From NCBI RefSeq assembly GCF_009193155.1, contig NZ_VUKD01000003.1, forward strand, positions 310,001-374,000: a DNA stretch of 64,000 nt. Direction: 5' to 3'. Shown piece by piece: positions 9,001-57,401 of this stretch. The stretch is from Georgenia subflava. Lineage in GTDB: Bacteria > Actinomycetota > Actinomycetes > Actinomycetales > Actinomycetaceae. The translations under genes and the position numbers were made by a program. The notes below the pieces were generated by a model that was given only the letters and a program-made list of their open reading frames with translations, searched no databases and had not been told where the DNA came from. How positions within the stretch are numbered: the stretch's first letter is position 1; each line of letters starts with the position of its first letter.

Positions 9001-9210
9001 GCCGGCGGGGGTGTGGCGCGGCCGTGCGGTGCTGGCCGGCGGGGTTGTGGCGCGGCCGTGCGGTGCTGGCCGGCGGGGTTGTGGCGCGGCCGTGCGGTGC
9101 TGGCCGGCGGGGTTGTTGCGCGGCCGTGCGGTGCTGGCCGGCGGGGTTGTTGCGCTGCCGTGCGGCGCTGGGCCGGCGAGGTTGTTGCGCGGCCGTACGG
9201 CGTCCGCCGC
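9001..9210. repeat. 34-bp tandem repeat array, about six copies
   Basis: The unit runs TTGTGGCGCGGCCGTGCGGT followed by GCTGGCCGGCGGGG. The phase marker (TGGCGCGG or a variant) recurs at 9014, 9048, 9082, 9116, 9150 and 9185. Drift (TGTTGCG, a 35-bp last spacing) increases toward 9210. The array fills the convergent gap between the phosphodiesterase and the small membrane gene. 34 is not a multiple of three, so it is not conserved protein. Confidence 0.9.
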
Positions 9211-9211
9211 G

Positions 9212-9562
9212 CTACCCGGCCACGTCGGGGGTGAAGGTCTCCTGGAGCAGGCCCGCGGCGCGCCAGCGGGCCGCGGAGCGGTCGAGACGTCCCTGGCGCT
9301 GCCGGGCGCGGGCGGCCTTCACGCGCTCGCGGGTGCGGCGGGCGGTCTCCAGCGTGCGGTCCTCGCCCAGCGCGCCGGGGACGTACCGCTGCGAGGCGGT
9401 GCTCTGGTCCTCGTCAGCGGCGCTCGAGAGCCGCTCGGCAGCTTCGCCGAGGCCCGCCACCTCGCGACCCAGCGCCTTGACCTGGCGCCAGAGCCGCAGC
9501 ACGAGCAGCGCCCCGGCGCCGAGCGCACCGAGGACGAGAAGGATCCAGATCAGCCACCACAC
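9212..9562 (-). CDS. Small single-helix membrane protein, unknown
   Basis: 116 aa. A strong N-terminal membrane helix (about 2-23, WLIWILLVLGALGAGALLVL) is followed by a charged, probably coiled-coil segment (VKALGREVAGLGEAAERL) and an Arg/Ala-rich cytoplasmic tail. I do not recognise a family. GTG 9562 lies four bases after the pafC stop, so it is very likely co-transcribed with pafB-pafC and possibly coupled. The stop (TAG) directly borders the 34-bp repeat array. Confidence 0.75.
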   Translation of the reverse strand: MWWLIWILLVLGALGAGALLVLRLWRQVKALGREVAGLGEAAERLSSAADEDQSTASQRYVPGALGEDRTLETARRTRERVKAARARQRQGRLDRSAARWRAAGLLQETFTPDVAG

Positions 9563-9566
9563 GGGC

Positions 9567-10541
9567 TCAGGATAGGTGGTCGTACGCGTCGAGGGCGCGC
9601 CGCGCGCGGGTGGCGACGTCGCGGGCGAGCTCCGTGGGCGCCACCGCGCGCACCGACTCCCCCAGGGAGAGCAGCAGGTTGGTGACCCAGGCCGGGTCGC
9701 CGGCCCGCAGCACCACCCGGAGGTCGCCGTCGGGCAGGTCGGTGACGGACTCCACGGGCGCGTGCTCGGCCACCCACCGCGCCTGCGACGCGAGCTCGAG
9801 CGTGACGGTCCGTCCGTCGCCCTCCCAGCCGGTCGCCGGCCCGCTCACGATCTCGGGGTGCTCCGCCGCCCCCTCGTCCAGGACCGCCAGGTCGAGGATC
9901 CGGTCCAGCCGGAAGGTACGGGCTCCCTGGGCGCGGTGGCACCACGCCCGCAGCGCCCAGGTCACACCGTCCGAGCGCAGCTCCACCGGGTCGACGTCGC
10001 GCTCGGTGACCACGTCCGCGGCGGAGACGTACCGCAGGTGCACGCGCCGTCGTGCCTCCACGGCGCCCTGCAGCGTCGCGAGGGTCGCGGCCGGGGCCTC
10101 GGCGTGCACGCGGACCTCCACCGAGGCGGCCTGCTCGGCAGCCCGGCCGGTGGCGGCCGTGAGCTTCCCCAGGGCCGACTCCAGGGCGCCGGCGCCGGGG
10201 TCGAGGCCCGGCTGGCGCTCGGCGAGCTCACGCAGGGAGCGAAGTGCCAGCAGCAGGGCCAGCGCCTCGGAGCTGGACAGCCGCAGCGGCCGGTCCATGC
10301 CGCGCGCGTCGGTCAGCGTCAGCCGGCCGTGGTCGAGAGCCTCGGCCGAGAAGTCGATCAGGTCGTCGGGGAGGTAGCCGGGCGTCCCGGAGACCCAGAG
10401 GAGGTTGACGTCCGCGAGCACCTGGGCCTCGGTCGCGGAGAAGTGCTCGGCGACGTCGGCGACCGGGGCCCCGGGGTGCTCGTTGAGGTAGGCGACCAGG
10501 GCCAGCAGCCGGGTGACCCGCTCGGCGGTGTTCTCAGCCAT
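9567..10541 (-). CDS. pafC: WYL-domain transcriptional regulator PafC
   Basis: Second half of the heteromeric PafBC regulator that, in mycobacteria, activates the LexA/RecA-independent DNA-damage response. 324 aa: N-terminal winged HTH (about 1-75, VTRLLALVAYLNEHPGAPVAD), then a WYL domain with RVHLRYVSAAD and WALRAWCHRAQGARTFRLDRI (about 165-235) and a C-terminal WCX extension. The ATG at 10541 overlaps the end of pafB by eight bases. The usual partner gene pafA (Pup ligase) is not upstream here. Confidence 0.92.
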   Translation of the reverse strand: MAENTAERVTRLLALVAYLNEHPGAPVADVAEHFSATEAQVLADVNLLWVSGTPGYLPDDLIDFSAEALDHGRLTLTDARGMDRPLRLSSSEALALLLALRSLRELAERQPGLDPGAGALESALGKLTAATGRAAEQAASVEVRVHAEAPAATLATLQGAVEARRRVHLRYVSAADVVTERDVDPVELRSDGVTWALRAWCHRAQGARTFRLDRILDLAVLDEGAAEHPEIVSGPATGWEGDGRTVTLELASQARWVAEHAPVESVTDLPDGDLRVVLRAGDPAWVTNLLLSLGESVRAVAPTELARDVATRARRALDAYDHLS

Positions 10542-11538: not shown

Positions 11539-11557
11539 GTCCCCACGCTACCGGGCG

Positions 11558-14437: not shown

Positions 14438-14531
14438 CTCTCGCTGCTCCTGCCTCTCGGCACGGGCGGCCGGGCGGGAGGGGGCGACGACGAGTGGCGC
14501 CACACGACGGACGGGTGTCCGCAGGCGGCGC

Positions 14532-14665: not shown

Positions 14666-14728
14666 TGCTCTACGGCCATCGTGCCACACCGCTGCGCTCC
14701 CGTCGTGCCCGGTACCGTGACGGGCGTG

Positions 14729-15940
14729 ATGATCTGGCGCGACGGCGTGGTGCGTGGTGTGCGGGCCGCCTGGGACGGTGCGGTCGAGCTCGAGGTGGAG
14801 ATCACGGGTCCTGCGCCCGGCGCGGCAGGCGCCCCGTCTCCCCTGTCGCCCGGCACTGCGGTCAGCGGCCCGACTCCCCTGTCGCCGGGCACGGCGGTCC
14901 GCGCGCTCGCCTATCCGCACCTGGTCGGCGAGCCTGCGGTCGGCGACCGGGTCACGCTCTCCGCCGCGGCGCTCGCCCGCGGGCTGGGCACCGGCGGCTA
15001 CGCGATGGTCGTCGCGCTGCCCGACGCGCTGCCGCCCGACCCCGGAGCCGGTCCGGGCCACCTCGTCAAGGCCCGGTACACACCGCTCCAGACGATGGTG
15101 CTGGGCGTGGACGAGCAGGAGTCCGCGCACCACGAGGTGCTCCGTGAGGCCGACGACCTCGGCGGCATGCCCGTCGTCGTCGCCGATCTCCACTCCGCCC
15201 TGCCGGCCGTTCTCGCCGGGATACGGAGCGTCGACCCCGAGCTGCGGGTCGCCTACGTGATGACCGACGGCGGGGCGCTCCCCGCGTGGTTCTCCCGGTC
15301 GCTCGCCGGGCTGCGTGACGCGCACTGGCTGGTCGGCTCCGTCACGGTCGGGCAGGCCTTCGGCGGCGACCTCGAGGCGGTCAACGTCCACACCGGGCTG
15401 CTCGCCGCCCGCCTGGTTGTCGGAGCGGACGCCGTCGTCGTCGCGCAGGGCCCGGGCAACCTCGGCACGGGCACCCGCTGGGGGTTCTCCGGCACCGCGT
15501 GCGGCGAGGCGGTCAACGCCGCCGCCACGCTCGGCGGTGCTCCCGTGGCCTCCCTGCGAGTCTCCGGTGCCGATCCTCGCGAGCGTCACCGAGGCGTCTC
15601 GCACCACTCGCTGACGGCCTACGGACGGGTCGCGCTGGCACCGGCGGACGTCGTCGTGCCCCGCTACGACACGGGCGACGCGCTCGAGGCGTCGCTCCCG
15701 CCCGGGTTCGGCGACCGGGTCGCCGAGCAGGCTAGGGCGCTCGCCGCCCCGGCGGGCATCCACCGCCTGGTGGAGGTCTCGACCGCCGGCCTCGGGCAGG
15801 CGCTCGCGGGCTCGCCGGTACGGCTGTCGACGATGGGGCGCGGGCTGGAGCAGGACCCCGCGGCGTTCCTCGCGGCCGCCGCCGCCGGCGTCCACGCGGC
15901 CCGCCTCGCAGGCCGCCCGGTCGGCAACGTGCCGGCCTAG
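14729..15940 (+). CDS. DUF3866 family protein
   Basis: 403 aa. Matches the actinobacterial DUF3866 family, function unknown: YPHLVGEPAVGDRV, LGTGGYAMVVALPD, PGHLVKARYTPLQTMVLGVDEQ, MPVVVADLHSALP and a Gly-rich VVAQGPGNLGTGTRWGFSG block. Near residue 35 a 36-bp unit is duplicated, giving PLSPGTAV twice; this looks like an expanded linker. ATG 14729 is called; the GTG at 14726 is equally possible because TACCGT at 14713-14718 could be a -10 for a leaderless message. Plus strand, divergent from ribD and sharing its short promoter region. Confidence 0.85.
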   Translation: MIWRDGVVRGVRAAWDGAVELEVEITGPAPGAAGAPSPLSPGTAVSGPTPLSPGTAVRALAYPHLVGEPAVGDRVTLSAAALARGLGTGGYAMVVALPDALPPDPGAGPGHLVKARYTPLQTMVLGVDEQESAHHEVLREADDLGGMPVVVADLHSALPAVLAGIRSVDPELRVAYVMTDGGALPAWFSRSLAGLRDAHWLVGSVTVGQAFGGDLEAVNVHTGLLAARLVVGADAVVVAQGPGNLGTGTRWGFSGTACGEAVNAAATLGGAPVASLRVSGADPRERHRGVSHHSLTAYGRVALAPADVVVPRYDTGDALEASLPPGFGDRVAEQARALAAPAGIHRLVEVSTAGLGQALAGSPVRLSTMGRGLEQDPAAFLAAAAAGVHAARLAGRPVGNVPA

Positions 15941-15964: not shown

Positions 15965-16170
15965 GCCGTGCCGGGCCCTTTCCTACGGGCGCGGCCGCGT
16001 GCCGTGGTGACGCCGCATGCCGCAGGTGACGTCACGTGCCGGGGACGGGACGCCTGCCGTGGAGATGGGCTGGCGTGGACGAGACGGCCTGCCGTGGGTG
16101 AGACGGCCTGTCGTGGACGAGACGGCCTGCTGCCGCATGCGGTTTCGTCCACGACATGCGTGTTCGTCCC
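15965..16170. repeat. Degenerate GC-rich repeats between two convergent genes
   Basis: Variants of a roughly 20-22 bp motif (GACGAGACGGCCTGCCGTGG, GTGAGACGGCCTGTCGTGGA, ATGCCGCAGGTGACG) recur with drift. The gap (15941-16203) contains no supportable gene. A 6-bp stem ACCGGC/GCCGGT at 16184-16203 just past the PH-gene stop may aid termination. Confidence 0.6.
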
Positions 16171-21606: not shown

Positions 21607-21695
21607 GGGAGTGCCGTTCTCTAGGGTGCCTGGATCCTCAGCACGGTACTCCACGCGTCCGGAACGGCCTGATCTGTCCGCTTCAGGGGCGGCGG

Positions 21696-21785
21696 GGTCG
21701 GGCCGCGACGGGGGCGGCGAGGTCATGCCGCGACGGGGACCGCGTGGTCATGCCGCGACGGGGGCGGCGAGGTCATGCCACGACG
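21696..21785. repeat. 25-bp tandem repeats between putP and rpe
   Basis: Unit GGTCATGCCGCGACGGGGGC plus GGCGA; copies start at 21696 (degenerate), 21721, 21746 and 21771 (partial). The 306-bp gap 21607-21912 shows no supportable gene. Confidence 0.75.
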
Positions 21786-21912
21786 GTCTGCGCTCTGGGA
21801 GCGGCAACGTCAGGCCACAGCGATCGTCCGTTACGGGGCGGGCCGAGCCGTGGCGCTCAGTCCGCTCCAGGTAGCGCGGAACGGGCCGAGCAGACTCGGG
21901 GGCTGTGTGGGA

Positions 21913-22578: not shown

Positions 22579-22704
22579 GCACGCCAGCCTACTGGGACGA
22601 CGTGCGCCTGCCCGGGGACGGCGGCTCACCGGTGGCGCAACGACCTGGGGTTTCCGAAGGTGGTGGGCCGCCCGCTGGGCGCCTGACGAGGCGGGTCACC
22701 CGCT

Positions 22705-22885
22705 CGTCGGGTATGGGGCGGCCTGTCCCGCTGGTCACGGACGGGGCGGGCTGTCCCGCGGGTCGCGGACGGGGCGGGCAGCGCCTTGCTGGTCGCGGAC
22801 GGGGCGGGCAGCGCCTTGCTGGTCGCGGACGGGGCGGGCCGCCATGCTGGTCGCGAGGCGGCAGCCTTGCTGGGCGAGCGCAGGG
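22705..22885. repeat. 28-30 bp tandem repeats downstream of rsmB
   Basis: Unit ACGGGGCGGGCAGCGCCTTG plus CTGGTCGCGG; copies begin at 22741, 22769, 22799 and 22829, with a diverged copy before them. The 347-bp gap 22579-22925 holds nothing else I can support. Confidence 0.85.
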
Positions 22886-25492: not shown

Positions 25493-25660
25493 GGTGCTCG
25501 AGTCTATGCGGTGCCTGCCGCGGAGGCCGTGCCGGAACTGTGGCCTGCGAGCTACGTAGCCCAGGAGCTACTACCGGATGCGTCGTGGGCGGCAGGCCCG
25601 CACGCTGGAGAGCTCCGCGCCTCGCCCCAGGCGATGTTATGGCCACGCCCGTCAGGCGTC

Positions 25661-26092
25661 GACGCTTCGGCCCCCAGCCCAGGACCATGAGCGAGATTCC
25701 CACAGCCTTGACGCCGGACGAAGTGGATGTCGTACCCCTCGGATAGTGTCCGAACAACAGTCCAACGAGGTGCTGGAGGGGGTGGGTGCGATGGCACAGC
25801 CGAGCAAGCCGGTTCGTTCGGGCGTTGCGGAACAGTCGTCGCCGATCGCCCTGGTCGTGGAGGTGCGGACGGCGACGACGCTTCGGCCCCCAGCCCAGGA
25901 CCATGAGCGAGATTCCCACAGCCTTGACGCCGGACGAAGTGGATGTCGTACCCCTCGGATAGTGTCCGAACAACAGTCCAACGAGGTGCTGGAGGGGGTG
26001 GGTGCGATGGCACAGCCGAGCAAGCCGGTTCGTTCGGGCGTTGCGGAACAGTCGTCGCCGCTCGCCCTGGTCGAGGAGGTGCGGACGGCGTC
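25661..26092. repeat. 216-bp tandem duplication at the 5' end of the DUF222/HNH gene
   Basis: Copy 1 is 25661-25876 and copy 2 is 25877-26092, with only about three mismatches, all in the last 40 bases. Each copy includes a TTGACG box, GGATAGTGTCC, GGAGGGGG and an ATG (25791 and 26007). 216 is divisible by three and no stop intervenes, so both ATGs are in frame. The rest of 25493-25660 has no supportable gene. Confidence 0.95.
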
Positions 26093-28079
26093 GACGGCGT
26101 TGCGCGGTCGGGCTCCGCACTCAGAGGCGAACGGTTGGCAGCACGCTGAGCGTGAGGCCGTGATCGCTGTGCTCGACGGCCTGATCCAGGAGCTGACGCG
26201 GTATCGCGGTGGTGTGCTTCTCGCGCACCGTGAGGACGGGCGGTGGGGTTCGGCGCGGGATAGGGACTTCACGGACTGGCGGGCCCGGACCAGCGGGACG
26301 GGGCGGGGTTCCGCGATGGGTGAGCTGATGGTCGCCGAGGGTCTCGAGGCGATGCCCGAGGTCGCGGAGGCGGTCGATGCCGGTGAGCTCACGCTGGAGC
26401 ACGCCAAGGCGTTGTCCCGGCTGCGGGCCGGCGCGTCCGCAGAGGTGAAGGAGGCGTTGGAGAACGGCGCGGCGGGTGAGCTGATCGAGCGGGCCAAGGC
26501 CAAGGACCTCACTGCTCCGGAGCTGGCCAAGGCCGCCAAGCAGGTCGCGGCCACGATCGACACGCAGGCCGCCCAGGACTCCTTCGAGGCCACCTGGCGG
26601 AGGCGTTCGCTGACCACGGGCAAGACGGCCGGGGGACGGTCCGGGCAGTGGGTCCTGGACGAGATCTCCGGCCGGGTCGTGGAGACGGCGCTCGAGACGA
26701 TCATGGGCAAGCCCGCGCTGGATGATGAGCGCACGCGCGGGGAGCGCATGGCCGACGCGCTGGTGACCATGTCCTCGCGGGTCCTGACGGTGGGCGCCGA
26801 CCTCAACGGTGCCCAGGTCCGCCCGCACCTGGCGCTGCTGGTCGATCAGGAGACCTGGGCCGCGGCCCGGCGCCACCTCGGCGAGGTCGATGACACCGTC
26901 GCCGCGGCGGTCGAGGCCACCCACGGCACCGGTGCCGCCTTCGGCCTCGGCCCGGACGGGCAGCCGCTGCGGGTCGCCGACCTCGAGGCCGACCGCACGG
27001 CCGGGCCGTGCGGTGGACCGGCCGGCGCGGGCGCCGACGGAGCCACCGTGCCCCCGACGGGTGTCGTGGCGGGGAGGACCACCCGGGGCGGCATGGGCGG
27101 CTGCGAGGTCACCGCGTTCGGGCGGGCCGCTGTGCCGCGGCTGCCCGATGTGGCTCCGGCTGAGCTCGAGGACGGCACCCTTGTCCCGCTCGGTGAGCTT
27201 CAGCGGATCATGTGCGACTGCGAGATGACCCGGATCGTGCTGGACGCCGACTCCGTCCCCCTGGACGTCGGCATGACCCAGCGCACCTACACCAAGGAGC
27301 TGCGCCGCGCCGTGACCACGCGGGATCGCCACTGCCAGTGGCCCGGCTGCACCATCAAGGCGTCCTGGACCGAGGTCCATCACGTCATCTGGTACTCCCA
27401 CAACGGCCCCACCTCGCTCGAGAACGGCATGTGTGCCTGCACGTACCACCACCACGTCATCCACCGAGACCACATCCGCGTGGTACCGCTCGCGGACGGC
27501 TTCGCGTTCTACCGCCCGGACGGAACCATGGTCGGGACCACACACCGCCGACCCCGCCGACCCCATCGAGGCAGCACCGCCGGCCAGGCCCCCGCCACCG
27601 ACGAGCTCACCCCGCCGAGCACCGGCGAGCACGAGCAGCTACTGCGCGACTGGCAACAGGTCGTGAGTAGCAACGGACGGCACCCACCCGAAACGCCACC
27701 ACCAACCCGGTCCGACGGCACAGCCCTGCCCATTTCGAGCAACCGTGTAGGCGATCCGCCCGATAGGCCCGCGCTCTCCGACCCGCCTGTTGGAGCAGCC
27801 CTTGCCAGTCCGCCTGTTGGGTCAGCCCTTGCCGACGCGCGTGGGGGGTCAGCGCCTGCGGGCCCGCGTGCGGGGTCAACGCCTGCCGGTGCGTCTGTGG
27901 GGTCACCGGCTGCCAGCCTGCGTGCGGGGTCAGCGCCTGCCGATCCTGGGATGGCAGCGCAAGAGCCGCTACCAGAGGTGAATCGCGTGCCTGACGCTGG
28001 TGCACTCTTCACGCGCGAGCCCGCCGCGACGCTCTGGGACGACTCCCTGCTCGAGCAGTCCCCCGAGCCGCCGTTCTGA
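26007..28079 (+). CDS. DUF222 / HNH endonuclease-domain protein (13E12-repeat family)
   Basis: 690 aa. An N-terminal DUF222 helical domain (about 20-330) is followed by an HNH nuclease motif (about 430-490: TTRDRHCQWPGCTIKASW, TEVHHVIWYSHNGPTSLENG, CTYHHHVIHRD) and a long Ala/Gly/Pro tail of repeats (about 560-660). These genes are multi-copy and variable in actinobacteria; nuclease activity is plausible but the biological role is unknown. ATG 26007 has GGAGGGGG eight bases upstream. Starting instead at the duplicated ATG 25791 would add 72 residues. An isolated plus-strand gene, with a locally less GC-rich 3' flank (28080-28350) that looks unlike its neighbours. Confidence 0.88.
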   Translation: MAQPSKPVRSGVAEQSSPLALVEEVRTASTALRGRAPHSEANGWQHAEREAVIAVLDGLIQELTRYRGGVLLAHREDGRWGSARDRDFTDWRARTSGTGRGSAMGELMVAEGLEAMPEVAEAVDAGELTLEHAKALSRLRAGASAEVKEALENGAAGELIERAKAKDLTAPELAKAAKQVAATIDTQAAQDSFEATWRRRSLTTGKTAGGRSGQWVLDEISGRVVETALETIMGKPALDDERTRGERMADALVTMSSRVLTVGADLNGAQVRPHLALLVDQETWAAARRHLGEVDDTVAAAVEATHGTGAAFGLGPDGQPLRVADLEADRTAGPCGGPAGAGADGATVPPTGVVAGRTTRGGMGGCEVTAFGRAAVPRLPDVAPAELEDGTLVPLGELQRIMCDCEMTRIVLDADSVPLDVGMTQRTYTKELRRAVTTRDRHCQWPGCTIKASWTEVHHVIWYSHNGPTSLENGMCACTYHHHVIHRDHIRVVPLADGFAFYRPDGTMVGTTHRRPRRPHRGSTAGQAPATDELTPPSTGEHEQLLRDWQQVVSSNGRHPPETPPPTRSDGTALPISSNRVGDPPDRPALSDPPVGAALASPPVGSALADARGGSAPAGPRAGSTPAGASVGSPAASLRAGSAPADPGMAAQEPLPEVNRVPDAGALFTREPAATLWDDSLLEQSPEPPF

Positions 28080-35467: not shown

Positions 35468-35610
35468 CGGGTGGTCGGCGGGCGGTGGGACGACAGATCG
35501 ATCGCAGCCGGTGCCGCGCCGGACTGGCCCACGCTGCTGGTCGAGTGCCGGGGCCGATCCGCGCCGTGGCAGGACCGACTCCGGACGGTGCCGGAACGGC
35601 GCGGCGTCGC

Positions 35611-35703
35611 GACCGGACGGGGCCGTCAGCGGGGAGCACGCGACGGGACGGGGCTGTCAGCGGGGAGCACGCGACGGGACGGGGCTGTCAGCGGAGAGCA
35701 GCA
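35611..35703. repeat. Three 31-bp tandem repeats across the pyrF stop codon
   Basis: Copies 35611-35641, 35642-35672 and 35673-35703, unit GACGGGACGGGGCTGTCAGC plus GGGGAGCACGC. The third copy contains the pyrF stop (35688-35690) and its last codons; the other two lie downstream of the gene. The rest of the 277-base gap holds only the mihF promoter. Confidence 0.9.
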
Positions 35704-36664
35704 GCGGCGCTGTCGACGGCGGAGCCGAGGGCGTCGCGCAGGGCCGACGCCGACGGCCCGGCGGCCAGCACGCCGCGCGAGGTGCTGGCGAGGACCTGGC
35801 GGCGGGCGTCGCCGAAGACGTGGACGAGCTCCCGAGGACCTGCCCCCTGCGCACCTACGCCGGGCGCCAGCAGCGGCCCGCGCGTCGCGGCGAGGTCGAG
35901 GCCGAGATCGGCGGCGGCCGCGCCGACGGTCGCCCCGACCACGAGCCCGACCGAGCCGAGAGGTGCCTCGGCGTCGATGTCGTTCTCCGCCCGCGCGCCG
36001 TCGACCATCTGGCGTGCCACCGGGCCCGCCGCGGCGACGGCGTGCTGGACGTGGTGGCCCTCGGGGTTGGACGTGAGAGCGAGCACGAAGACCCCGCGAC
36101 CGGTCGACCTGGCGAGGTCGAGAGCGGGGCGCAGCGACGCGAAGCCGAGGTACGGCGAGAGGGTGATGGCGTCGGCCGCGAGCGGAGCGCCGTCGCGCAG
36201 GTATGCGTCGGCGTAGCCGGCCATGGTCGAGCCGATGTCGCCGCGCTTGACGTCGAGGACGGTCAGCGTGCCCGCCGTCCGCGCCGCCGCCAGGACCTCC
36301 TCGAGGACGGCGATGCCCGCGGAGCCGTGCCGCTCGAAGAACGCCGACTGTGGCTTGAGGGCGGCGACCCGCCCGCCGAGCGCGTCGACGACCGTCAGGG
36401 CGAACCGCCGCAGCCCCTCAGGGGAGTCGGTGAGGCCCCACGTCTCGAGGAGGGCAGGGTGCGGGTCGATGCCCACGCACACCGGCCCGTGGGTGTCCAT
36501 CGCGGCGGCGAGCCGGGTGCCGAAGGGCACCCGGGCACCCTCGCCGGCCGGCGACCCGCCGGCAGGTGACCCGTCGGCCGGTGACCCGTCGGCCGGCGTC
36601 AGGCCGGCGGGCGACGCACCGACAGGCGAGACGTCTCCGGCCGGGGCCCCGGCCGCCCCGCCCA

Positions 36665-39994: not shown

Positions 39995-41325
39995 CAGCTG
40001 TTCTCGCTCTCGTCGGTGGTGCGGTGCGCGTCCGTGGTGCGGGGCGCATCCGTGGTGCGGTGCGCCTCCGTGGTGCGGGGTGCGTCGGTGGTGGGGTGCG
40101 CGTCGCCGGCACGGTGCTCGTCGATCATCCGGACGAACCGGTCGAAGAGGTGCTCGGCGTCGTGCGGGCCCGAGGCGGCCTCGGGGTGGTACTGGACCGA
40201 GAAGGCGGGCAGGTCCAGCGCTCGCAGCCCCTCCACGACGTCGTCGTTGAGGTTGACGTGCGAGACCTCGACGTGCCCGTACCGGCCGCCGTCGAACGGG
40301 GCGAGGGAGGGGGCGTCGGTCGGGGCGTCGACGGCGAACCCGTGGTTGTGGGCGGTGATCTCGACCTTGCCCGTGGTGCGGTCCAGGATCGGCTGGTTCA
40401 CGCCGCGGTGGCCGTAGGCGAGCTTGTAGGTGCCGTAGCCGAGCGCCCGGCCGAGGAGCTGGTTGCCGAAGCAGATGCCGAAGAACGGCAGGCGTGCGTC
40501 CAGGACGCCGCGCAGGAGCTCGACCTCGTGGGTGGCGGCCTCGGGGTCGCCGGGGCCGTTGGAGAAGAAGACGCCGTCGGGCGCGAGCGCGAGGAGCTCG
40601 GCGAGGGACGTCGACTGGGGCACCACGTGGACCCGGACCCCGCGCGCGGCGAGCTGGGCGGGGGTGCGGGACTTGATGCCCAGGTCGACGGCGACGACGG
40701 TCGCGACCGGGTCCTTGCCGGCGAAGTCGCCGGTAGGCTCGACGACGTAGGTGGCGGGTGTGGAGACCTCGCGGGCCAGGTCCGCGCCGGCCATCTGCGG
40801 CGCCTGGCGCACGATGTCGAGCAGGACCTCGACGGCCTGGTCGGTGAGGTGCTCGGCGCCCGCCGGGAGCGCCGCGCCGGAGAAGATGCCGGCGCGCATG
40901 ACGCCGCGCTCGCGCAGGTGCCGGGTCAGGGCCCGGGTGTCGACGTCGCAGACGCCGACGACGCCCTGGTCGGCCAGCTCGTCCTCGAGCTCGCGCTCGG
41001 CGCGCCAGCTCGAGGCCCGCCGGGCGGCGTCGCGGACGACGACGCCGGCCACCCACACCTTCCCCGACTCCGGGTCCTCGTCGTTGACGCCGGTGTTGCC
41101 GATGTGCGGGGCGGTCATCACGACGATCTGCCGGTGGTAGCTCGGGTCGGTGAAGGTCTCCTGGTAGCCGGTCATCCCGGTGGAGAAGACGACCTCGCCG
41201 ACGGTGCGACCGGTGGCTGCGTAGGCGCTGGCCCGCATGACGAGCCCGTCCTCGAGGACGATCAGCGCCGGTTCGCGCAGGGCGCCGCGCAGGGCCGTCC
41301 CGGTGGCTGTTGTGGGGGCGCTCAT
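39994..41325 (-). CDS. carA: Carbamoyl-phosphate synthase, small (glutaminase) subunit
   Basis: 443 aa. N-terminal CPSase small domain ([34 protein letters not shown]) and class-I glutaminase with catalytic Cys in [13 protein letters not shown], plus HNHGFAVD and [12 protein letters not shown]. After the normal end near residue 408 there is a tail of hexapeptide repeats ([12 protein letters not shown]) encoded by 18-bp units. ATG 41325 overlaps pyrC (ATGA). Confidence 0.97.
40011..40100 (-). repeat. Five 18-bp in-frame repeats, C-terminus of carA
   Basis: Exact 18-base phase at 40011, 40029, 40047, 40065 and 40083, alternating CGTCCGTGGTGCGGGGCG and a GCGGTGCG variant. They encode alternating AHRTTD and APRTTD blocks just before the stop codon. 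Confidence 0.92.
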
Positions 41326-42635: not shown

Positions 42636-44304
<1,669 letters not shown>

Positions 44305-47927: not shown

Positions 47928-48574
47928 CCCCACCGGTCCGCGTGGTGATCGCCGACGACCACCCGATGTTCCGCTACGGGCTGCGGGCGGCTCTCGAGGC
48001 CGTGACCGAGATCGAGGTGGTCGGCGACGCCTCTGACGGCGGGACGCTCGTGGCGCTCGTGGACGAGCTCCGACCGCACGTCGTGCTCACCGACCTGACC
48101 ATGCCCAACGTCGGCGGAGAGACCGCCATCGCACTGATCCTCGCCCGGTTCCCCGAGGTGGCTGTGCTCGTCCTGAGCATGCACGCCGACGACGACGCCG
48201 TGCTCGGCGCGCTACGCGCAGGTGCGCGGGGCTACCTGCTCAAGGGCGCCGACCGCGACGAGATCGCCCGGGCGGTCCTCACCGTGGCGGGCGGGGGCAC
48301 GGTGTACGGCCCCGAGGTGGGACGGCGGCTCAGCGAGCTCCTCGCGCTCCGCGGCCCAGCGGTGCGTCCCTTCCCCGATCTCACTCCGCGGGAGGAGCAG
48401 GTGCTCTCCCTCGTCGCCACCGGTCTCGGCAACCACGAGATCGCCCGGCGCCTCGGTCTGTCCGAGAAGACGGTGCGTAACAACGTCGCGGCGACCCTCG
48501 CCAAGCTGCAGGTCCGTGACCGGGCCGCCGCGGTGGCACGGGCGCGGGACGCGGGCATGCGTGCGCCGTCGTGA
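47924..48574 (+). CDS. NarL/FixJ-family response regulator
   Basis: 216 aa. A receiver domain (1-120) with DDHP acid pocket, phospho-acceptor D57 (VVLTDLTMPN) and the K of LLKGADRDE, then a LuxR-type HTH (about 150-205: LTPREEQVLSLVATGLGNHEIARRLGLSEKTVRNNVA). Overlaps its kinase gene by four bases, so the pair is cognate. Target genes unknown; the divergent membrane gene is a candidate. Confidence 0.94.
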   Translation: MTPPVRVVIADDHPMFRYGLRAALEAVTEIEVVGDASDGGTLVALVDELRPHVVLTDLTMPNVGGETAIALILARFPEVAVLVLSMHADDDAVLGALRAGARGYLLKGADRDEIARAVLTVAGGGTVYGPEVGRRLSELLALRGPAVRPFPDLTPREEQVLSLVATGLGNHEIARRLGLSEKTVRNNVAATLAKLQVRDRAAAVARARDAGMRAPS

Positions 48575-48576
48575 TT

Positions 48577-48670
48577 CGCCTCAAGACCGCATGTTTGCCC
48601 GCGTCGCGCGACGCGTCGTGACGCGCCTTGAGATCGCAGGTCTGCCCGCGTCGCGCGAGGGGCTCGCGGC
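48577..48670. repeat. Two 47-bp imperfect repeats downstream of nusB
   Basis: CGCCTCAAGACCGCATGTTT and CGCCTTGAGATCGCAGGTCT open the copies at 48577 and 48624; both continue GCCCGCGTCGCGCGA. They fill the convergent gap between the response regulator and nusB. Confidence 0.75.
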
Positions 48671-49140: not shown

Positions 49141-49200
49141 TGGGTCGGCGTGCCGAGGTGTCGGTCGGCGTACTGACGTGTCGGTCGGCGTGCTGGCGCG
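49141..49200. repeat. Three 20-bp tandem repeats between efp and nusB
   Basis: Copies 49141-49160, 49161-49180 and 49181-49200, unit TCGGTCGGCGTACTGACGTG with variation. Not a multiple of three; no gene in 49104-49249. Confidence 0.88.
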
Positions 49201-49249: not shown

Positions 49250-49813
49250 TCAGTCGTTGACGCGGCCGAGGTAGTCCCCCGAGCGCGTGTCGACCTTGAC
49301 CTTGGTGCCGGTCTCGAGGAACAGGGGCACCTGGATCTCGTAGCCGGTGGCGATGGTGGCGGGCTTGGTGCCGGCCGAGGAGCGGTCGCCCTGCAGGCCG
49401 GGCTCGGTGTAGGTGATCTCCATGACGACGGAGGCCGGCATCTCGACGAAGAGGACCTGGCCCTCGTGCATGGCCACGATGACGTCCTGGTTCTCCAGGA
49501 GGAAGTTCGCGGCGTCGCCGACGGTCTCCGGCGGGATCGGGATCTGCTCGTAGGTCGAGGAGTCCATGAAGACGAAGTCGGTGCCGTCCTTGTACAGGTA
49601 CTGCATGTCACGGCGGTCCACCGTCGCGGTGTCGACCTTGACGCCGGCGTTGAAGGTCTTGTCCACGGTCTTGCCGGACAGGACGTTCTTGAGCTTCGTG
49701 CGGACGAAGGCTGGCCCCTTGCCGGGCTTGACGTGCTGGAACTCGACGACGGACCAGAGCTGTCCGTCGATGTTGAGCACCAGACCGTTCTTCAGGTCGT
49801 TGGTCGAAGCCAT
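49250..49813 (-). CDS. efp: Elongation factor P, actinobacterial PGKGP-loop type
   Basis: 187 aa, relieves ribosome stalling on proline runs. Three beta-barrel domains at full length. The tip of domain I reads [12 protein letters not shown] with P30-G31-K32-G33-P34, the palindromic PGKGP loop of an actinobacterial subfamily reported to work without lysine modification. ATG 49813. No modification genes are seen in the window, consistent with that. Confidence 0.97.
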
Positions 49814-51120: not shown

Positions 51121-51864
51121 TCAGTTTCGCGGCCGCTCGAGCACCGCGAGCACCGCGTCGGTGGCGTCACCGACATCGGTCCCGGAGGTGTCCACCACCG
51201 CCGCGGCCACCGCCTCGTAGGCAGGGCGGCGCCGGGCGGCCATCGAGGAGAACTGGGAGCGAGGGCTGCCGAGGGCGACCGAGCGCGGCGCGTTCAGACC
51301 GACGCGCGGCATGCCCGCGGCCAGGGAGACGTCGAGGAAGACGACGGTGCCCCCGTCGGCCACGTACCGCTCGAGGCGGGAAGCCGCCCGTTCGACGGCA
51401 CCGCTGCCCAGGGCGACCACGCCGTCCGCGGCGAGGGCCTCGGCCACGATCTGCTCCTCCAGCTCCCGGAAGCGTTCCTCGCCGAGGTCGACGAACAGCT
51501 CTCCGACGCTGGTGCCGGACCGCTCCGCCAGGACGGTGTCGGTGTCGACGAAGGGCACGGCGAGCCGCTGGGCGGCCTCGGCTCCGACGGCCGACTTACC
51601 GGCGCCGGGCGGACCGACGAGGACGAGACGCGGGATGCTCACGCCCACACCGTAACCGCCGCCCGCGCGACCATCGTCGTTCGTTCCTGCATCCCGGTGG
51701 ATGTGTGCACTGCCGCTGTCATGTGCACTGCCGTTCCCGTGTGCACTGCCGCTGTCATGTGCACTGCCGTTCCCGTGTGCACTGCCACTGTCGTGTGCAG
51801 TGCCGTTGCCTCGAGCATCGCCGCTGTCGTGTGCAGCGTCGCCCATGTGCTCCCCGTCGCTCAT
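51121..51864 (-). CDS. Second shikimate-kinase-like protein with repeat-rich N-terminus
   Basis: 247 aa. The kinase part (about 76-247) has Walker A GPPGAGKS (84-91), FVDTD with the shikimate-binding Asp, ERFRELEEQ and RRPAYEAV. The usual GGG is GSG (ALGSGAV) and the lid region differs (NAPRSVALGSPRSQF), so activity on shikimate is uncertain. Residues 1-74 are mostly DSGSAH/GNGSAH hexapeptides. ATG 51864 is called because it overlaps the aroK-aroB stop (ATGA); GTG 51642 would give the bare kinase. It is a diverged paralogue of the AroK half next door. Confidence 0.75.
   Translation of the reverse strand: MSDGEHMGDAAHDSGDARGNGTAHDSGSAHGNGSAHDSGSAHGNGSAHDSGSAHIHRDAGTNDDGRAGGGYGVGVSIPRLVLVGPPGAGKSAVGAEAAQRLAVPFVDTDTVLAERSGTSVGELFVDLGEERFRELEEQIVAEALAADGVVALGSGAVERAASRLERYVADGGTVVFLDVSLAAGMPRVGLNAPRSVALGSPRSQFSSMAARRRPAYEAVAAAVVDTSGTDVGDATDAVLAVLERPRN
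51703..51846 (-). repeat. Eight 18-bp in-frame repeats, N-terminus of the second shikimate kinase
   Basis: Units at 51703, 51721, 51739, 51757, 51775, 51793, 51811 and 51829, alternating ATGTGCACTGCCGCTGTC and a GCCGTTCCC form (36-bp higher-order period). The first three pairs are nearly exact; the last two units have drifted. Confidence 0.92.
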
Positions 51865-53642
51865 GCGCTCACCGCAGAGTAGGCGGCCCGGAGCTGCTCG
51901 GGGGTCGGTGCGCGCAGGACCGTCGGTTCGGCGATGTCCGTCAGCACCACGAACCGCAGCGCGTCGTCGCGCACCTTCTTGTCCCGGGCCATGGCGTCGT
52001 GGAGCTCCGGCCAGCGGTCGCCGCGGTAGGTCGTGGGTAGCCCCAGGAGGCTGAGCACCTTGCGGTGACGGTCCACCACTGCTGCGTCGAGCATTCCCGC
52101 GGCGTGGGCAAGCTCGGCGGCGAACACCATCCCGACGGCGACGGCATCGCCGTGGCGCCAGGAGTAGGCCTCGGTCCGTTCGATGGCGTGGGCGAGCGTG
52201 TGCCCGTAGTTGAGGATCTCGCGCAGCCCGGCCTCACGCAGGTCCTCCCCCACCACCCGCGCCTTGACGGCGACGGCACGCTGGACGAGCTCGCGCAGGA
52301 CCGGTGACGCGGGGTCCTGGGCGGCCGCGCCACCGTCCGCCTCCACCAGGTCGAGGATCCTCTCGTCGGCGATGAAGCCTGCCTTGACCACCTCGGCGAG
52401 CCCGGCGCGCAGGTCCGCGGCCGGCAGGGTCGTCAGCGCGGCAAGGTCGCAGACTACCCCGGCGGGCGGGTGGAACGCACCGACGAGGTTCTTGCCGGCG
52501 GCCGTGTTGATGCCGGTCTTGCCGCCGAGCGCGGCGTCGACCATGCCGAGGAGGGTGGTGGGGACGTTGACGAGACGGACACCGCGTAGCCAGGAGGCGG
52601 CCACGAAGCCGGCGACGTCGGTCGTGGCACCGCCGCCGACGGCGACCACCACGTCCTGCCGGCCGAAACGGTGCTCGCCCAGCCGGTCCCAGCAGCGGGC
52701 GACGACGTCGATCGTCTTGGCCGCCTCGGCGTCGGGCACCTCGTGGAGGACGACCTCGCGGCCGGCCGCGCTCAGGGCGTCGCCCAGCCGTCGGGCCCGG
52801 TCGACGGTGGCGGGGGCGTGCACGACGAGCACCCGGGACGCGTCGGAGCCGACAAGGTCGACGACCTCGGCGCCGAGATCGTGACCGACGACGACGTCGT
52901 ACGGGTTCGCTCCGGCGACGCTGATGCGGCCGGGCGCTCCGGGGACGCCGATGCGGCCAGGTGCTCCGGGGACGCCGATGCGGCCAGCGGTCTCCGCGTC
53001 GCTGGTGCGACCCCCCGCGTCCCCTGCCGTGCCTGCCGGCACGGTGCTGCCGGCAGGTGTCGGGGTGTCCGCCGGTGCGGGGTCGCCGACCGGTGCCGGG
53101 CTGCCGGCCGCAGCTGTGGTCGAGGCGGTGTGCCGCGCACGGGCGGACAGCAGAGCGAGGATCTCCTCCGCCACGTTCTGCGGGCTGCGGTCGTTCGTAC
53201 GCACGACGGCGGTCGCCACGGCTTCGTAGACGGGACGCCGTTCGGCGACGAGCGCGGCGAGCCGCGCGGCGGGGTCGCCGGCGAGCAGGGGCCGCTCCTC
53301 GGACCGGGACACCCGTACCAGGGCCTCCTCCACGTCGACGTCGAGGTAGACCACCGTGTGCCCGCGCAGTGCCTCGCGCGTGCCGGGGTGCAGCACGGCA
53401 CCGCCGCCGAGCGAGACAACGGCGTCGGTGGCGAGCAGCCGGGTGACCGTCTCGTGCTCCAGGTGGCGGAAGTGCTCCTCCCCGTGGGTGCGGAACAGCT
53501 CGGGGATGGTGGTGCCCGCGGTGCGCTCGACCTCGGCGTCGGCGTCGTACAGCTCGACGTGGAGGGCGCGGGCGAGCAGCCCACCGACGGTGGTCTTGCC
53601 CGCACCGGGCGGGCCGACGAGGACGACGTGGGGACTGGTCAC
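51861..53642 (-). CDS. aroKB: Fused shikimate kinase / 3-dehydroquinate synthase
   Basis: 593 aa joining two shikimate-pathway enzymes. AroK part (1-165): GPPGAGKT (10-17), ELYDADAEVE, EEHFRHLE, SLGGGAV (79-81 GGG), SRSEERPLL lid and ERRPVYE. A low-complexity linker (about 170-232) includes a 9-residue repeat GRIGVPGAP. AroB part (about 236-593): VVAVGGGATTDVAGFVAASW, PTTLLGMVDAALGGKTGIN, AGLAEVVKAGF, and the zinc motif NYGHTLAHAIE...HGDAVAVGM. GTG 53642. Both halves look active. It overlaps the second kinase gene by ATGA. Confidence 0.95.
   Translation of the reverse strand: MTSPHVVLVGPPGAGKTTVGGLLARALHVELYDADAEVERTAGTTIPELFRTHGEEHFRHLEHETVTRLLATDAVVSLGGGAVLHPGTREALRGHTVVYLDVDVEEALVRVSRSEERPLLAGDPAARLAALVAERRPVYEAVATAVVRTNDRSPQNVAEEILALLSARARHTASTTAAAGSPAPVGDPAPADTPTPAGSTVPAGTAGDAGGRTSDAETAGRIGVPGAPGRIGVPGAPGRISVAGANPYDVVVGHDLGAEVVDLVGSDASRVLVVHAPATVDRARRLGDALSAAGREVVLHEVPDAEAAKTIDVVARCWDRLGEHRFGRQDVVVAVGGGATTDVAGFVAASWLRGVRLVNVPTTLLGMVDAALGGKTGINTAAGKNLVGAFHPPAGVVCDLAALTTLPAADLRAGLAEVVKAGFIADERILDLVEADGGAAAQDPASPVLRELVQRAVAVKARVVGEDLREAGLREILNYGHTLAHAIERTEAYSWRHGDAVAVGMVFAAELAHAAGMLDAAVVDRHRKVLSLLGLPTTYRGDRWPELHDAMARDKKVRDDALRFVVLTDIAEPTVLRAPTPEQLRAAYSAVSA
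52924..52986 (-). repeat. 27-bp in-frame repeats in the AroK-AroB linker
   Basis: ATGCGGCCAGGTGCTCCGGG plus GACGCCG at 52924, 52951 and (partial) 52978, coding for the nonapeptide GRIGVPGAP between the two enzyme domains. Confidence 0.88.
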
Positions 53643-53771
53643 GCGGTCACGCTACCGCCGCGGCGCGGGGCCGGAGCCGACGGTCTCAGTCCCCAGTCGG
53701 CAGGCTGCACTCATGATCGCGCGTGCACCGCCGGGCGAGGTCGACGCACCGCGTCCGGCCCGCGGCCGGGC

Positions 53772-54986
53772 TCAGCGGCGCGTCTCGGGGATGGCGTCGA
53801 GGTAGCCGCGCAGGTTGCGGGCCGCCTCCCCGACGGAGTCCCCGCCGACCTTCTCGAGCAGCGCCTGGGCGAGGACGAGGGCGACCATCGCCTCGGCGAC
53901 CACGGCAGCGGGCGGCACGGCGCACACGTCCGAGCGCTGGTGGATGGCCTTCGCCGGCTCGCCGGTGGTGACGTCGACGGTGGCCAGGGCGCGCGGCACG
54001 GTGGAGATCGGCTTCATCGCCGCACGCACGCGCAGCACCTCGCCGTTGCTCATGCCTCCCTCGGTGCCGCCGGCACGGTTCGTCGCACGGCGCAGCCGAC
54101 CGTCGGCCGAGACGATCTCGTCGTGCGCGACGCTGCCGCGGCGGGCTGCCGTGCGGAAGCCGTCACCGATCTCGACGCCCTTGACAGCCTGGATGCCCAT
54201 GACCGCGCCGGCGAGGCGCGAATCGAGCCGGCGGTCGCCCGAGACGTGCGAGCCGAGGCCGGGCGGCAGGCCGTAGGCGAGGACCTCGACGACGCCGCCG
54301 ACGGTGTCGCCGTCGCGCTGGCACTGGTCGATCTCGGCCACCATCGCGGCCGAGGAGGCGGGGTCGAGGCAGCGCACGGGGTCGGCGTCCAGGGCGGCGA
54401 CGTCGTCGGGCCCGGGCAGCGGTGCGTCCTCGGGCGTGGCGACTGGGCCGATCGCGACGACGTGCGAGACGAGGCGGACGCCGGCGACCTGCTCGAGCAG
54501 CGCGGCCGCCACCGTTCCCAGGGCGACCCGGGCCGCGGTCTCACGGGCGCTGGCCCGCTCGAGAACCGGGCGGGCGTCGTCCAGATCGTACTTCTGCATG
54601 CCGACGAGGTCCGCGTGGCCGGGACGGGGACGCGTGAGCGGCCGGTTGCGGGCGACCTCCCGCTCGTCACCGGTGCCGGCGTCGATCAGGAGGGACTCGG
54701 CGGGGACGGGGTCGGCGGACATGACCGTCTCCCACTTGGGCCACTCGGTGTTGCCGATCTCGACCGCCACGGGGCCGCCCATGGTCTGGCCGTGCCGCAC
54801 GCCGCCGAGGATGCGCACCTCGTCCTGCTCGAACTTCATGCGCGAGCCGCGCCCGTGGCCGAGTCGCCGCCGGGCGAGGGCGGCCCGGATGTCGGCGGAG
54901 GTCACCTCCACGCCGGCCGGCACGCCCTCGAGGACGCCGACGAGGGCGGGGCCGTGCGACTCACCTGCGGTCAACCATCTGAGCAT
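53772..54986 (-). CDS. aroC: Chorismate synthase
   Basis: 404-aa FMN-dependent last enzyme of the shikimate pathway. [21 protein letters not shown] at the start, [34 protein letters not shown] and [11 protein letters not shown] are signatures. ATG 54986 is the family-normal start. It uses reduced FMN, the cofactor sensed by the two riboswitches in this window. 129 bases separate it from aroKB. Confidence 0.97.
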
Positions 54987-55317
54987 GGCCCCGATCCTGC
55001 CACGGCGAGACACGTCGCCCGGATGGCGTCCACGATCGGCAACCCGATGTCGTCGGGACGGCCACGTTGTTGGGACGGCCTCGTTGTGGGACGGCGGCCA
55101 CGTCGTCGGGACGGCCAACGGACGCTGTCGGGACAGCCGACGACTTTGGTCGGGACGGATGCTGTCGGGACGGCCACCGACGCTGTCGGAACGGCCGACG
55201 ACGTTGTCGGGACGGCCACCGCCGGTGCGAATTGGAGGGTGGATGTGGGTTGACGCCAGGAGGCTCGTGGTGAGGCCTGTTCGTACCGGGCGCCGCGCTG
55301 CGCTGCTGGTGCGCCAC
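54987..55317. repeat. 331-bp gap with degenerate short repeats between pilD-type gene and aroC
   Basis: From about 55048 to 55230, variants of GTCGGGACGGCCACG and GTTGTCGGGACGGCC recur every 17-29 bases, about nine times. No gene is supportable. It lies just 3' of the prepilin peptidase. Confidence 0.8.
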
Positions 55318-56058
55318 TCAGTGCAGCAGGTGGCCGCCGATATGCAGCGCGGTGGCCGCAGCGGCGCCGAGGAACAGCCACGGGCCGAGCGCGACGGCGC
55401 TGCGCCGGTGTGCCCGCCGCGTCAGCAGCAGCACCGCGGCGAAGACCCCACCGAGGATGAACGTGGCGAGCACGCCCGCCACGACGGCTGTCCATCCGAA
55501 CCAGCCCAGCCACACCCCGACGACGGCACCCACCTTGACGTCACCGAGGCCGAGCCCGCCGGTGCGCAGCAGCGCGAGCGCGAGGTACACCAGCCCTGAG
55601 ACGGCGCCCGCGAGTCCGGCCCGGCCGAGCGCCGGCCAGCCCCCGGTCAGCACGGCAGCGAGCGTGAGACCGACGGCGACGATCGCCAGCCCCACGAGCA
55701 CCAGGCGGTCCGGGAGCCGGTGGGTGCGCACGTCGATGACGGCGAGCAACGTCGCCGCCGCGGTCAGCGCGGCGCCGGTCAGCACGACGGACCAAGGCTG
55801 GCCGGTCAGACCGACGGCCGCGAGGATCATCAGGAGGAGGGCGATCGCTCCGTCGAGCGGGCGCAGGTTGGCGCGGACGCGTGCCCGTCCAGGCGCTGCT
55901 GCAGAGATGCCGACCTTCTTTGCCGGCGCCTCGGCCGCCGTGCCGACCTTCTCGGCCGCCGCCTCGGCCGCCGTGTCGACCCTCTCGGCCGACGTGTCGA
56001 CCTTCTTGGCCGGCACCTCGGCCGACGTGTCGACCTTCTTGGCCGGCTCAGCCGGCAT
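55318..56058 (-). CDS. A24-family prepilin peptidase
   Basis: 246 aa. Membrane aspartyl protease that trims type IV pilin/Tad-type prepilins. The two catalytic Asp are in [13 protein letters not shown] and [10 protein letters not shown] (GxGD), within about six helices. It lacks the N-terminal zinc/methylase domain of long PilD proteins. Residues 1-50 are an Ala/Lys/Val repeat ([10 protein letters not shown]). ATG 56058 overlaps aroE by 11 bases; a later start near the first helix is possible. No pilin genes are in the window. Confidence 0.85.
55915..56049 (-). repeat. 33-bp in-frame repeats, N-terminus of the prepilin peptidase
   Basis: GCCGACGTGTCGACCTTCTT followed by GGCCGGCACCTCG at 55988 and 56021, with degenerate units before. 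They encode [10 protein letters not shown]-like blocks and directly follow the aroE stop. Confidence 0.85.
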
Positions 56059-57034
56059 GCCTGTCCTTGCGGTCCGCGGGCAGCGTGAACGGTGGTGGCG
56101 AGCTCAGCACCTCTCCCCCGGCGGAGCGCCGCGCCAGCTCGCCGACGAGAGCGTCGCGCATGACCTCCACGTCGGGGGTCCTGCCCGTCATCAGCCGGAC
56201 CTGCGCCTCCGCCTGGTGCAGCAGCATCCCCCACCCCGGGGCGACGGTGCCGCCGGCCTCCTGCCATGCCTCGTCGATAGGGGTCGGCCACGGGTCGTAG
56301 ACCACGTCGAGCAGGACCGCACCGGACAGCGCGTTCGGCGAGCCGGCCAGCCGGTCGCGCATCACGGTAGAGACCGGGTCCGCGATCCCGGCGGGCACGG
56401 TGGAGATCACCACGTCAGCGGCGAGGACGGCGTCGGCCGCCACGTCGGGCGTGGACCAGGTGACGTTTTCGGTCGTGACGCCCATGCGGTGGGCGGCGAC
56501 TGCGGCGCTCCCCGGGCCGGCGAAGCTGCGTGCCACGAGGGTCGTGCGTGTGCAGCCCAGCTCGCCGAGCGCAGCGAGGGCGGAGGACGCGGTCGCGCGG
56601 GCGCCGAGCACCACCGCCCGCTGCGGACGCCAGCCGGCCGGTGCCGCCTCGCGGAGGGTCGCGACGATGCCGTGGACGTCGGTGTTGAACCCGGACAACG
56701 GCCCGGCGCGCCCCGCGCGCCCCGGCTGGACGACAAGGGTGTTCACCGCTCCGGTGACCTCGGCGAGCGGGTCGACGGCGTCCAGGAGCGGCATGATCGC
56801 CTGCTTGAGCGGCATCGTCAGCGACAGGCCGCCCCAGCTCGCGTCGAGCTGGTCGACGACGGCGGGCAGCTGGTCGGCCGTGACGTCCTGGAGCCCGTAG
56901 CCCCAGTCGTCCAGACCCAGCTGTGCGTAGGCGGCCCGGTGCAGCGTCGGCGAGAGCGAGTGACCCACCGGGTGGCCGAGCACGGCGCAGCGTCGGTCGA
57001 TACCGGGCGCGGCGAGGTCCTGTCCGACGGCCAT
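56048..57034 (-). CDS. aroE: Shikimate dehydrogenase
   Basis: 328 aa, reduces 3-dehydroshikimate with NADPH. AVLGHPVGHSLSPTLHRAAY, GGLSLTMPLKQA (catalytic Lys), GAVNTLV, GFNTDVHGI and the C-terminal GWGMLLHQAEAQVRLMTG are visible. The nucleotide loop is VLGARATAS rather than GAGG(A/S)(A/S)R, a diverged form. ATG 57034. 360 bases of repeats separate it from mltG. Confidence 0.93.
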   Translation of the reverse strand: MAVGQDLAAPGIDRRCAVLGHPVGHSLSPTLHRAAYAQLGLDDWGYGLQDVTADQLPAVVDQLDASWGGLSLTMPLKQAIMPLLDAVDPLAEVTGAVNTLVVQPGRAGRAGPLSGFNTDVHGIVATLREAAPAGWRPQRAVVLGARATASSALAALGELGCTRTTLVARSFAGPGSAAVAAHRMGVTTENVTWSTPDVAADAVLAADVVISTVPAGIADPVSTVMRDRLAGSPNALSGAVLLDVVYDPWPTPIDEAWQEAGGTVAPGWGMLLHQAEAQVRLMTGRTPDVEVMRDALVGELARRSAGGEVLSSPPPFTLPADRKDRHAG

Positions 57035-57250
57035 GCGGGTCGGTCCTCCAAGTCGGTGGTGCTGTCGATCGCGACCGTCCGGCCGCCAGCCAAGTTCTAC
57101 CAGCCGGGGCCGTGGGACGGTGCCGAGGTCCACAGCCGGCTCAAGGCGCTCGTTCGCCGGACCTGCTCGTCAGCTCGTGCCCGATGGCACGGCCGATGGC
57201 AGCCTCGACCGCCTCGGCGACCTCGTCCGGCGCACGGCCCAGGAGACCAC

Positions 57251-57401
57251 CGGTCAGGAGGTGCTGACTCGTGTCACCCCTCGGGGTCACGGTTTGCAGG
57301 TGGTCAACTCGTGTCCCCTGCCGGGGCCACCGGTCAGGAGGTCCTGACTCGTGTCACCCCGCGGCGGCCTCCGGTCACGAGGTGCCGACTCCTGTCACCC
57401 G
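57251..57401. repeat. Four 30-bp units spaced about 40 bp, ending over the mltG stop
   Basis: Unit CGGTCAGGAGGTCCTGACTC plus GTGTCACCCC at 57251, 57290, 57331 and 57372. The last contains the mltG stop codon (57395-57397). TCAGGAGGTCCTGA within the unit is itself palindromic. The remainder of the 360-base gap (57035-57250) shows no gene. Confidence 0.88.

Follow-up and report, generated by a model that had tools for sequence, protein, structure and literature searches.

Arrays and genes of the window

The window, by which we mean the whole 64-kb stretch of Georgenia subflava DNA analysed here (contig NZ_VUKD01000003.1, positions 310,001 to 374,000), carries priA, pyrF, carA, pyrR, nusB and a fused aroK-aroB gene (aroKB) among its genes, and along it lie short tandem repeat arrays in the spacers, across stop codons, and in the linkers and terminal extensions of proteins. 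The initial annotation, made from the sequence alone, had claimed at least 15 such arrays, and Tandem Repeats Finder (TRF) recovered all 15 at the same places and with the same unit lengths, together with four additional arrays at a score of at least 80. Unless stated otherwise, the arrays counted below are non-redundant TRF arrays with a 10–120-bp unit and a score of at least 80. Gene names in the window rest on Pfam matches for 18 of the 20 proteins scanned, and metK in addition, while carB, aroE, aroC, and efp are named from their position or from the initial annotation.

Seven arrays lie within spacers. A 45-bp unit (2.2 copies, 98% matches, 7870-7966, one of the four additional arrays) stands between the divergent gene at 7392-7781 (minus strand) and a GDPD gene at 7984-8958 (plus strand), and the convergent spacer between this GDPD gene and a 116-residue open reading frame (ORF) at 9212-9562 (minus strand) holds 5.9 copies of a 34-bp unit (9001-9200). 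Another convergent spacer, past the DUF3866 gene, has 5.2 copies of a 19-bp unit (16037-16130, additional), followed by a 28–30-bp unit (4–5.5 copies, 22699-22855) between the rsmB-like and ribulose-phosphate epimerase genes and a 25-bp unit (4.0 copies, 21686-21786) between the epimerase and SSF symporter genes. Farther along are a 20-bp unit (2.5 copies, 49143-49193) between the gene at 49250-49813 (minus strand) and nusB, and 17/58-bp units (55052-55221, additional) between the minus-strand genes at 55318-56058 and 53772-54986. Three more arrays span a stop codon: a 31-bp unit (3.0 copies, 35608-35700, minus strand) at the end of pyrF (35688), a 47-bp unit (2.0 copies, 48567-48658) at the end of a response-regulator gene (48574) convergent with nusB, and a 41-bp unit (4.0 copies, 57247-57405, minus strand) at the end of a YceG/MltG-like gene (57395). 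It had been stated that most intergenic arrays lie just 3' of a minus-strand stop; such a placement is nearly forced in the window because most of the genes called there are on the minus strand.

The coding arrays lie in tails, linkers, and extensions, on the minus strand except in the DUF3866 and DUF222 ORFs (plus strand). C-terminal tails carry an 18/36-bp unit in CarA (40011-40104, residues 408-439 of 443, past the GATase domain at 212-399) and 4.2 copies of an 18-bp unit in PyrR (43659-43734, residues 180-205 of 208). Alignments to relatives stop at PyrR residues 184-192 in seven of seven cases and at CarA residues 403-416 in five of seven, the two that align to the CarA end being G005 and G006, a pair of sister species compared in detail below. 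Linkers carry 3.0 copies of a 27-bp unit (52908-52987) where the AroK domain (12-164) of the fused protein is joined to its AroB domain (from 249), and a 36/72-bp unit (30555-30713) in PriA residues 202-254, past the 3' DNA-binding domain (34-133). An N-terminal extension of the prepilin peptidase holds a 33/54-bp unit (55908-56047, residues 5-43, domain at 97-207), and two further arrays likely encode N-terminal extensions as judged by frame: 4.9 copies of a 15-bp unit at pyrF (36542-36615), where, by eye, the open frame reaches back to an ATG overlapping the carB stop (TGATG), and an in-frame 18/36-bp unit at the second shikimate kinase gene (51703-51835), with an ATG overlapping the aroKB stop, again by eye. 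In the DUF3866 ORF, 2.1 copies of a 36-bp unit (14829-14904, residues 436-461) stand directly ahead of the Pfam domain (460-789), sharing 2 residues with it, and in the DUF222 ORF a 27/54-bp unit (27796-27943, additional) lies close to the C-terminus, at residues 599-646 of 690.

Two side observations concern these genes. Behind the fused aroK-aroB gene stands another shikimate kinase gene of its own (51121-53642), and in all seven relatives that were compared both genes are matched, each at a different place. At 25655-26096, on the 5' side of the DUF222 gene, a stretch of 216 bp is directly duplicated (2.0 copies, 98% matches); it equals 72 codons, is open in the ORF frame, and covers the called start region, so that either the N-terminus of the gene or its upstream region is doubled.

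The arrays are well beyond chance. The window holds 19 of them against a total of 4 in 20 shuffles that kept codons in genes and dinucleotides in spacers, and at a score of at least 100 it holds 16, against none in 10 dinucleotide shuffles and 2 in 20 codon-keeping shuffles. Copies match one another at 71–98%. These are thus head-to-tail units of about 10–100 bp in excess of chance, as in minisatellites of the variable-number tandem repeat type. Outside the window, 20 stretches of 20 kb (400 kb, from 4 of the 11 contigs of the 4.32-Mb genome) gave 57 arrays, or 1.43 per 10 kb, which makes 76 arrays in the 464 kb of window and sample together; the arrays were said to occur across the window, and they are found through the sampled genome as well, with the window (19 in 64 kb) richer than the rest. 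A larger set of 1.6 Mb from nine Georgenia genomes, mostly these 464 kb together with 420 kb of G006 and 427 kb of G005, contained 212 arrays.

The claim that each array has a private unit also stood. Among the 76 units compared (E <= 1e-3), the one similar pair consisted of two overlapping pieces of a single array, no similar pair joined separate arrays, and no motif common to the units was found. When nine window spacers were compared with up to seven relatives, arrays were absent from many of the orthologous spacers. Past DUF3866 and in the epimerase-symporter and aroC-peptidase spacers, relatives have arrays whose units are by eye unrelated to those of the window, G005 and G006 sharing one; in the nusB-efp and aroK-aroKB spacers, none of the seven relatives has an array.

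Reading frame, protein domains, and turnover between sister species

Selection on reading frame had been proposed, along with a comparison of unit length modulo 3 inside and outside genes, and the two classes do differ, which supports such selection. In the 464-kb set, all 26 coding arrays have units divisible by three, whereas the 50 mostly noncoding arrays show remainders of 0, 1, and 2 in 17, 16, and 17 cases; in the 1.6-Mb set, all 79 coding units are multiples of three, whereas this is true of 56 of 130 noncoding units (remainders 56/34/40), with 3 arrays unclassified. The noncoding surplus of multiples of three probably includes N-terminal extensions missed by gene calling, pyrF and the second aroK being examples. 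Coding arrays of the own sample also keep out of Pfam domains: 4 of 26 lie inside one, although the extent of domains in these proteins predicts 12.4 (P = 6e-5), a test in which 3 of the 26 proteins had no Pfam match, the DUF3866 array was scored as outside, and a few matches below Pfam's own cut-off were scored as domain.

Along the 1.6 Mb, the bias toward noncoding DNA is strong, the share of base pairs covered by arrays being 0.6% in coding DNA and, among spacers, 4.3% in divergent ones, 7.4% in co-directional ones, and 8.4% in convergent ones. Arrays straddle a stop codon in 29 of 212 cases and a start codon in 4 of 212. For G006, the stop-to-start count used here is 10:3, from the extended sample, the smaller first sample having given 6:0. 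In the own 464 kb, 14 arrays lie over stops and none over starts, while random placement gives 7.4 +/- 2.6 of each, so that starts are depleted as clearly as stops are enriched. Given that stops are straddled, starts rarely so, and Pfam domains avoided, the gene-end look of the arrays most likely reflects mostly the tolerance of selection.

G005 and G006 are 93.2% identical over BLAST blocks and 94.8% over the aligned collinear block. In the alignment used for indels, 263 kb were aligned, 168 kb fell into unaligned gaps longer than 2 kb, and indels of 10–600 bp were scored. Defining tandem indels by their overlap with TRF arrays (an earlier strict self-similarity filter had kept just 6 of 120 indels), we obtained 81 tandem-repeat and 152 other indels. 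Several orthologous arrays differ by whole units, by 1.00, 2.00, 3.00, or 5.00 of them (for example, a 24-bp unit by 3.00, and 15-bp units by 2.00 and by 5.00); many are unchanged, others differ by non-integers, and some have no placeable ortholog. Such whole-unit copy-number variation between relatives is that of minisatellites. Tandem indels are not focused near stops, their density per kb being 3.2, 2.4, 3.6, 2.0, and 2.7 in successive bins from 0 to 300 nt after stops; before starts it is 0.2 in the nearest 30 nt and then 2.4, 2.2, 2.7, and 2.5 out to 300 nt. Other indels run from 6.4 to 4.3 per kb moving away from stops and from 1.1 to 5.1 moving away from starts.

One pair of orthologous sites suggests how such an array may arise. 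In G006, an array of 186 bp (4.2 units) extends over a stop codon; its 44-bp unit, which includes the final codons of the gene together with the stop, recurs four times, always exactly 44 bp apart. At the same site G005 has 69 bp, with one longer copy in which the stop region is separately repeated with a 15-bp unit. The 69-bp stretch is flanked by an 11-base direct repeat with copies 59 bp apart, and since 59 minus the 15-bp repeat is 44, this single example fits the 11-base repeat having been the seed of slippage.

Replication slippage is the usual explanation of such repeats. We propose, with a probability of roughly 0.84, that these arrays are ordinary minisatellites, that is, tandem duplications born by slippage, filtered by selection, and surviving where they are tolerated; here, both the molecular step (slippage) and the filtering by selection are inferred. 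A local sequence would be duplicated in tandem by slipped-strand mispairing during replication or repair, and the resulting array would then expand or contract by whole units through the same slippage. Such events could occur anywhere on the chromosome, and selection would remove most of those that interrupt a promoter or ribosome-binding site, disrupt a folded domain, or break a reading frame, leaving survivors in spacers, over stop codons, or, if the unit is divisible by three, in protein linkers and terminal extensions. Over a stop codon, the first copy would keep the true stop, so that the extra copies would end up in the 3' untranslated region. In our judgement the arrays are real and of an ordinary kind, and their main interest is as mutation filtered by tolerance. 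What looked like a gene-end system would thereby become a plain example of mutation combined with tolerance, in which the frame rule, the asymmetry between stops and starts, and the avoidance of domains would be a readout of what each piece of DNA can bear, and Georgenia would be suited to the study of repeat-born tails and linkers on conserved enzymes (CarA, PyrR, AroKB, and PriA) and to asking why the array load of sister species differs.

Several points weigh against slippage plus tolerance as the full account. The 14 stop-straddling arrays of the own sample do not exceed what random placement can give (at most 17 in 500 trials), and called gene starts are approximate. In five genomes, the co-directional spacers hold 53 arrays, 34 of them closer to the stop (10 of these run over it) and 19 closer to the start (binomial p = 0.053). 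Divergent spacers have relatively more tandem indels than convergent and co-directional ones (p = 0.03 and 0.02, uncorrected). Non-tandem coding indels show no frame bias (17/16/19), so part of them are alignment or gene-call artefacts, which makes them a weaker yardstick. The copy-number comparisons span species, with one genome for each. Finally, array coverage of spacers is 7.7% in the own genome, 5.5% in G006, 1.0% in G005, and 0.5% in G008 (80 kb only), and since the load is accounted for neither by GC content nor by chance and varies among close relatives, a lineage-specific rate factor may be missing.

Array load among genomes and likeness to known repeats

Arrays per 10 kb number 1.43 in the own genome, 1.28 in G003, 1.50 in G006, 0.67 in G007, 0.61 in G005, and 0.37 in G008; another genus of the family, represented by G015, reaches 1.94, and genomes outside Georgenia have 0.64 (G010), 0.36 (G021), 1.14 (G025), and 0.33 (G034), with one shuffle per genome giving 0 arrays. 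At the aroKB locus, the densities are 0.62 in Streptomyces, 0.46 in Nocardioides and allies, and 0.23 at other high-GC loci, as taken from 39 of 57 loci after excluding two from Georgenia and 16 that were short, low in GC, or unsorted. Georgenia thus stands on the array-rich side, unevenly, and overlaps with outside genomes.

Because the load differs several-fold among congeners of similar GC content, sister species included, some Georgenia lineages and the neighbouring genus of G015 might have a heritably raised rate of tandem duplication, a slippage-mutator state, although we regard this as a rather unlikely addition to ordinary slippage. G006 has 63 arrays and G005 has 26 in about 420 kb each (p = 7e-5), or 27 and 8 in the collinear block (p = 0.002), with a similar coding coverage (0.63% and 0.49%). 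In the aligned part, tandem insertions are 45 in G006 and 36 in G005 (p = 0.37), and other insertions 102 and 50 (p = 3e-5), so G006 has more inserted DNA of every kind, which makes a mutator state slightly less likely. If such a state were real, the excess would build up in tolerant DNA and would constantly make new disordered tails and linkers on housekeeping enzymes. Two repair genes, NucS and Ku, were searched as candidate causes of the load. Loss of mismatch repair was rejected, given that all 39 genomes searched, the own one included, have NucS (PF01939), and so was non-homologous end joining, given that Ku (PF02735), found in 24 of 39 genomes and in all nine Georgenia, is also found in the array-poor G021 and G034.

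It had further been stated that no described system explains the arrays, and this did not hold, since the repeats of Borgs, which are extrachromosomal elements, as portrayed in the account of Schoelmerich et al. 2023 (PMC9879509), have the same frame rule and unique units: there, all units in ORFs are divisible by three, against only 14–38% of intergenic ones. The likeness extends to nearly all units being unique, to fast turnover among close relatives, and to coding units divisible by three, which in Borgs give disordered protein regions. In contrast to the perfect, A-biased Borg repeats described there, the Georgenia arrays match at 71–98%, are GC-rich (AT content 22%, against 27% in array-free co-directional spacers), and lie on a bacterial chromosome. 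A survey of prokaryotic satellites (Subirana and Messeguer 2019, PMC6749651) likewise reports 10–200-bp units that in some species are all unrelated and scattered over the genome, and takes multiples of three as coding. The bacterial maximum in its Table 1 is 23.0 per Mb, against 42 per Mb here (arrays with about four or more copies in the own 400-kb sample), a figure not strictly comparable given our looser TRF criterion. The term "stop codon" is absent from the main text of that survey, as are "stop codon" and "convergent" from the main text of PMC2884548, and by title no paper related to Georgenia tandem repeats is apparent among the open-access papers searched. In Mycobacterium tuberculosis, PMC12817950 describes copy-number changes of tandem repeats and an in-frame bias, with 17 of 25 structural variants of pe/ppe genes in frame; its account stresses promoter repeats and ascribes the in-frame bias to mechanism rather than selection. 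The Georgenia arrays resemble these in both the copy-number changes and the in-frame bias, and differ in being scarce beside start codons and in having a frame bias confined to coding DNA.

Gene ends, transcription ends, and dispersed families

The initial annotation had suggested a local duplication process focused on gene ends. We consider such a process improbable, whether it is dedicated or has a mechanistic focus, as at stalled forks or transcription termination. Besides the 14:0 ratio of stops to starts and the lean of co-directional-spacer arrays toward stops, it could draw on the convergent spacers, the most array-rich of the own sample (25% of their base pairs, 15 arrays in 5.9 kb); in the 1.6-Mb set, however, the convergent excess falls to the near-equality with co-directional spacers given above, and it is in convergent spacers that substitutions between G005 and G006 are most frequent (17.0%, against 8.6% in co-directional and 8.9% in divergent spacers and 4.8% in coding DNA), a gradient that runs parallel to the proposed tolerance. 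Within co-directional spacers, the 43 arrays that lie completely inside are evenly spread from stop to start (mean relative position 0.45, Kolmogorov–Smirnov p = 0.41). The share of tandem among the 81 tandem and 152 other indels is not raised in the spacers that contain a 3' end, convergent and co-directional together (Fisher p = 0.49), nor was the tandem-to-other ratio raised there relative to coding DNA in the first half of the data (p = 0.43). New duplications thus occur at an approximately flat rate with distance from the stop, with no enrichment near gene ends beyond tolerance.

Slightly less probable still is that the 3' arrays are transcription-end elements kept by selection, either repeated terminator hairpins or C-rich Rho-loading sites. 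Many spacer arrays do come after stop codons, and in co-directional spacers, to which this comparison of the 53 arrays with 80 sampled array-free spacers was confined, the C skew on the transcript strand is 0.058 with arrays and 0.028 without, and the mean folding z is -0.88 and -0.65, respectively; but neither difference is significant (p = 0.31 for skew and p = 0.41 for folding), the folding medians are -0.52 and -0.69, the units have no common sequence, and arrays are missing from many orthologous spacers of relatives. A mobile repeat family of the MIRU, REP, or palindromic-unit type, dispersed by insertion behind genes, would resemble the arrays in position; this is rejected as very improbable, since the privacy of the 76 units means that the same unit was not found at many loci.

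As a separate observation on 3' regions, the word CGGCACCG occurs in 22 of 260 of them in the own sample, window included, against 3.4 expected, and is possibly part of a terminator stem.

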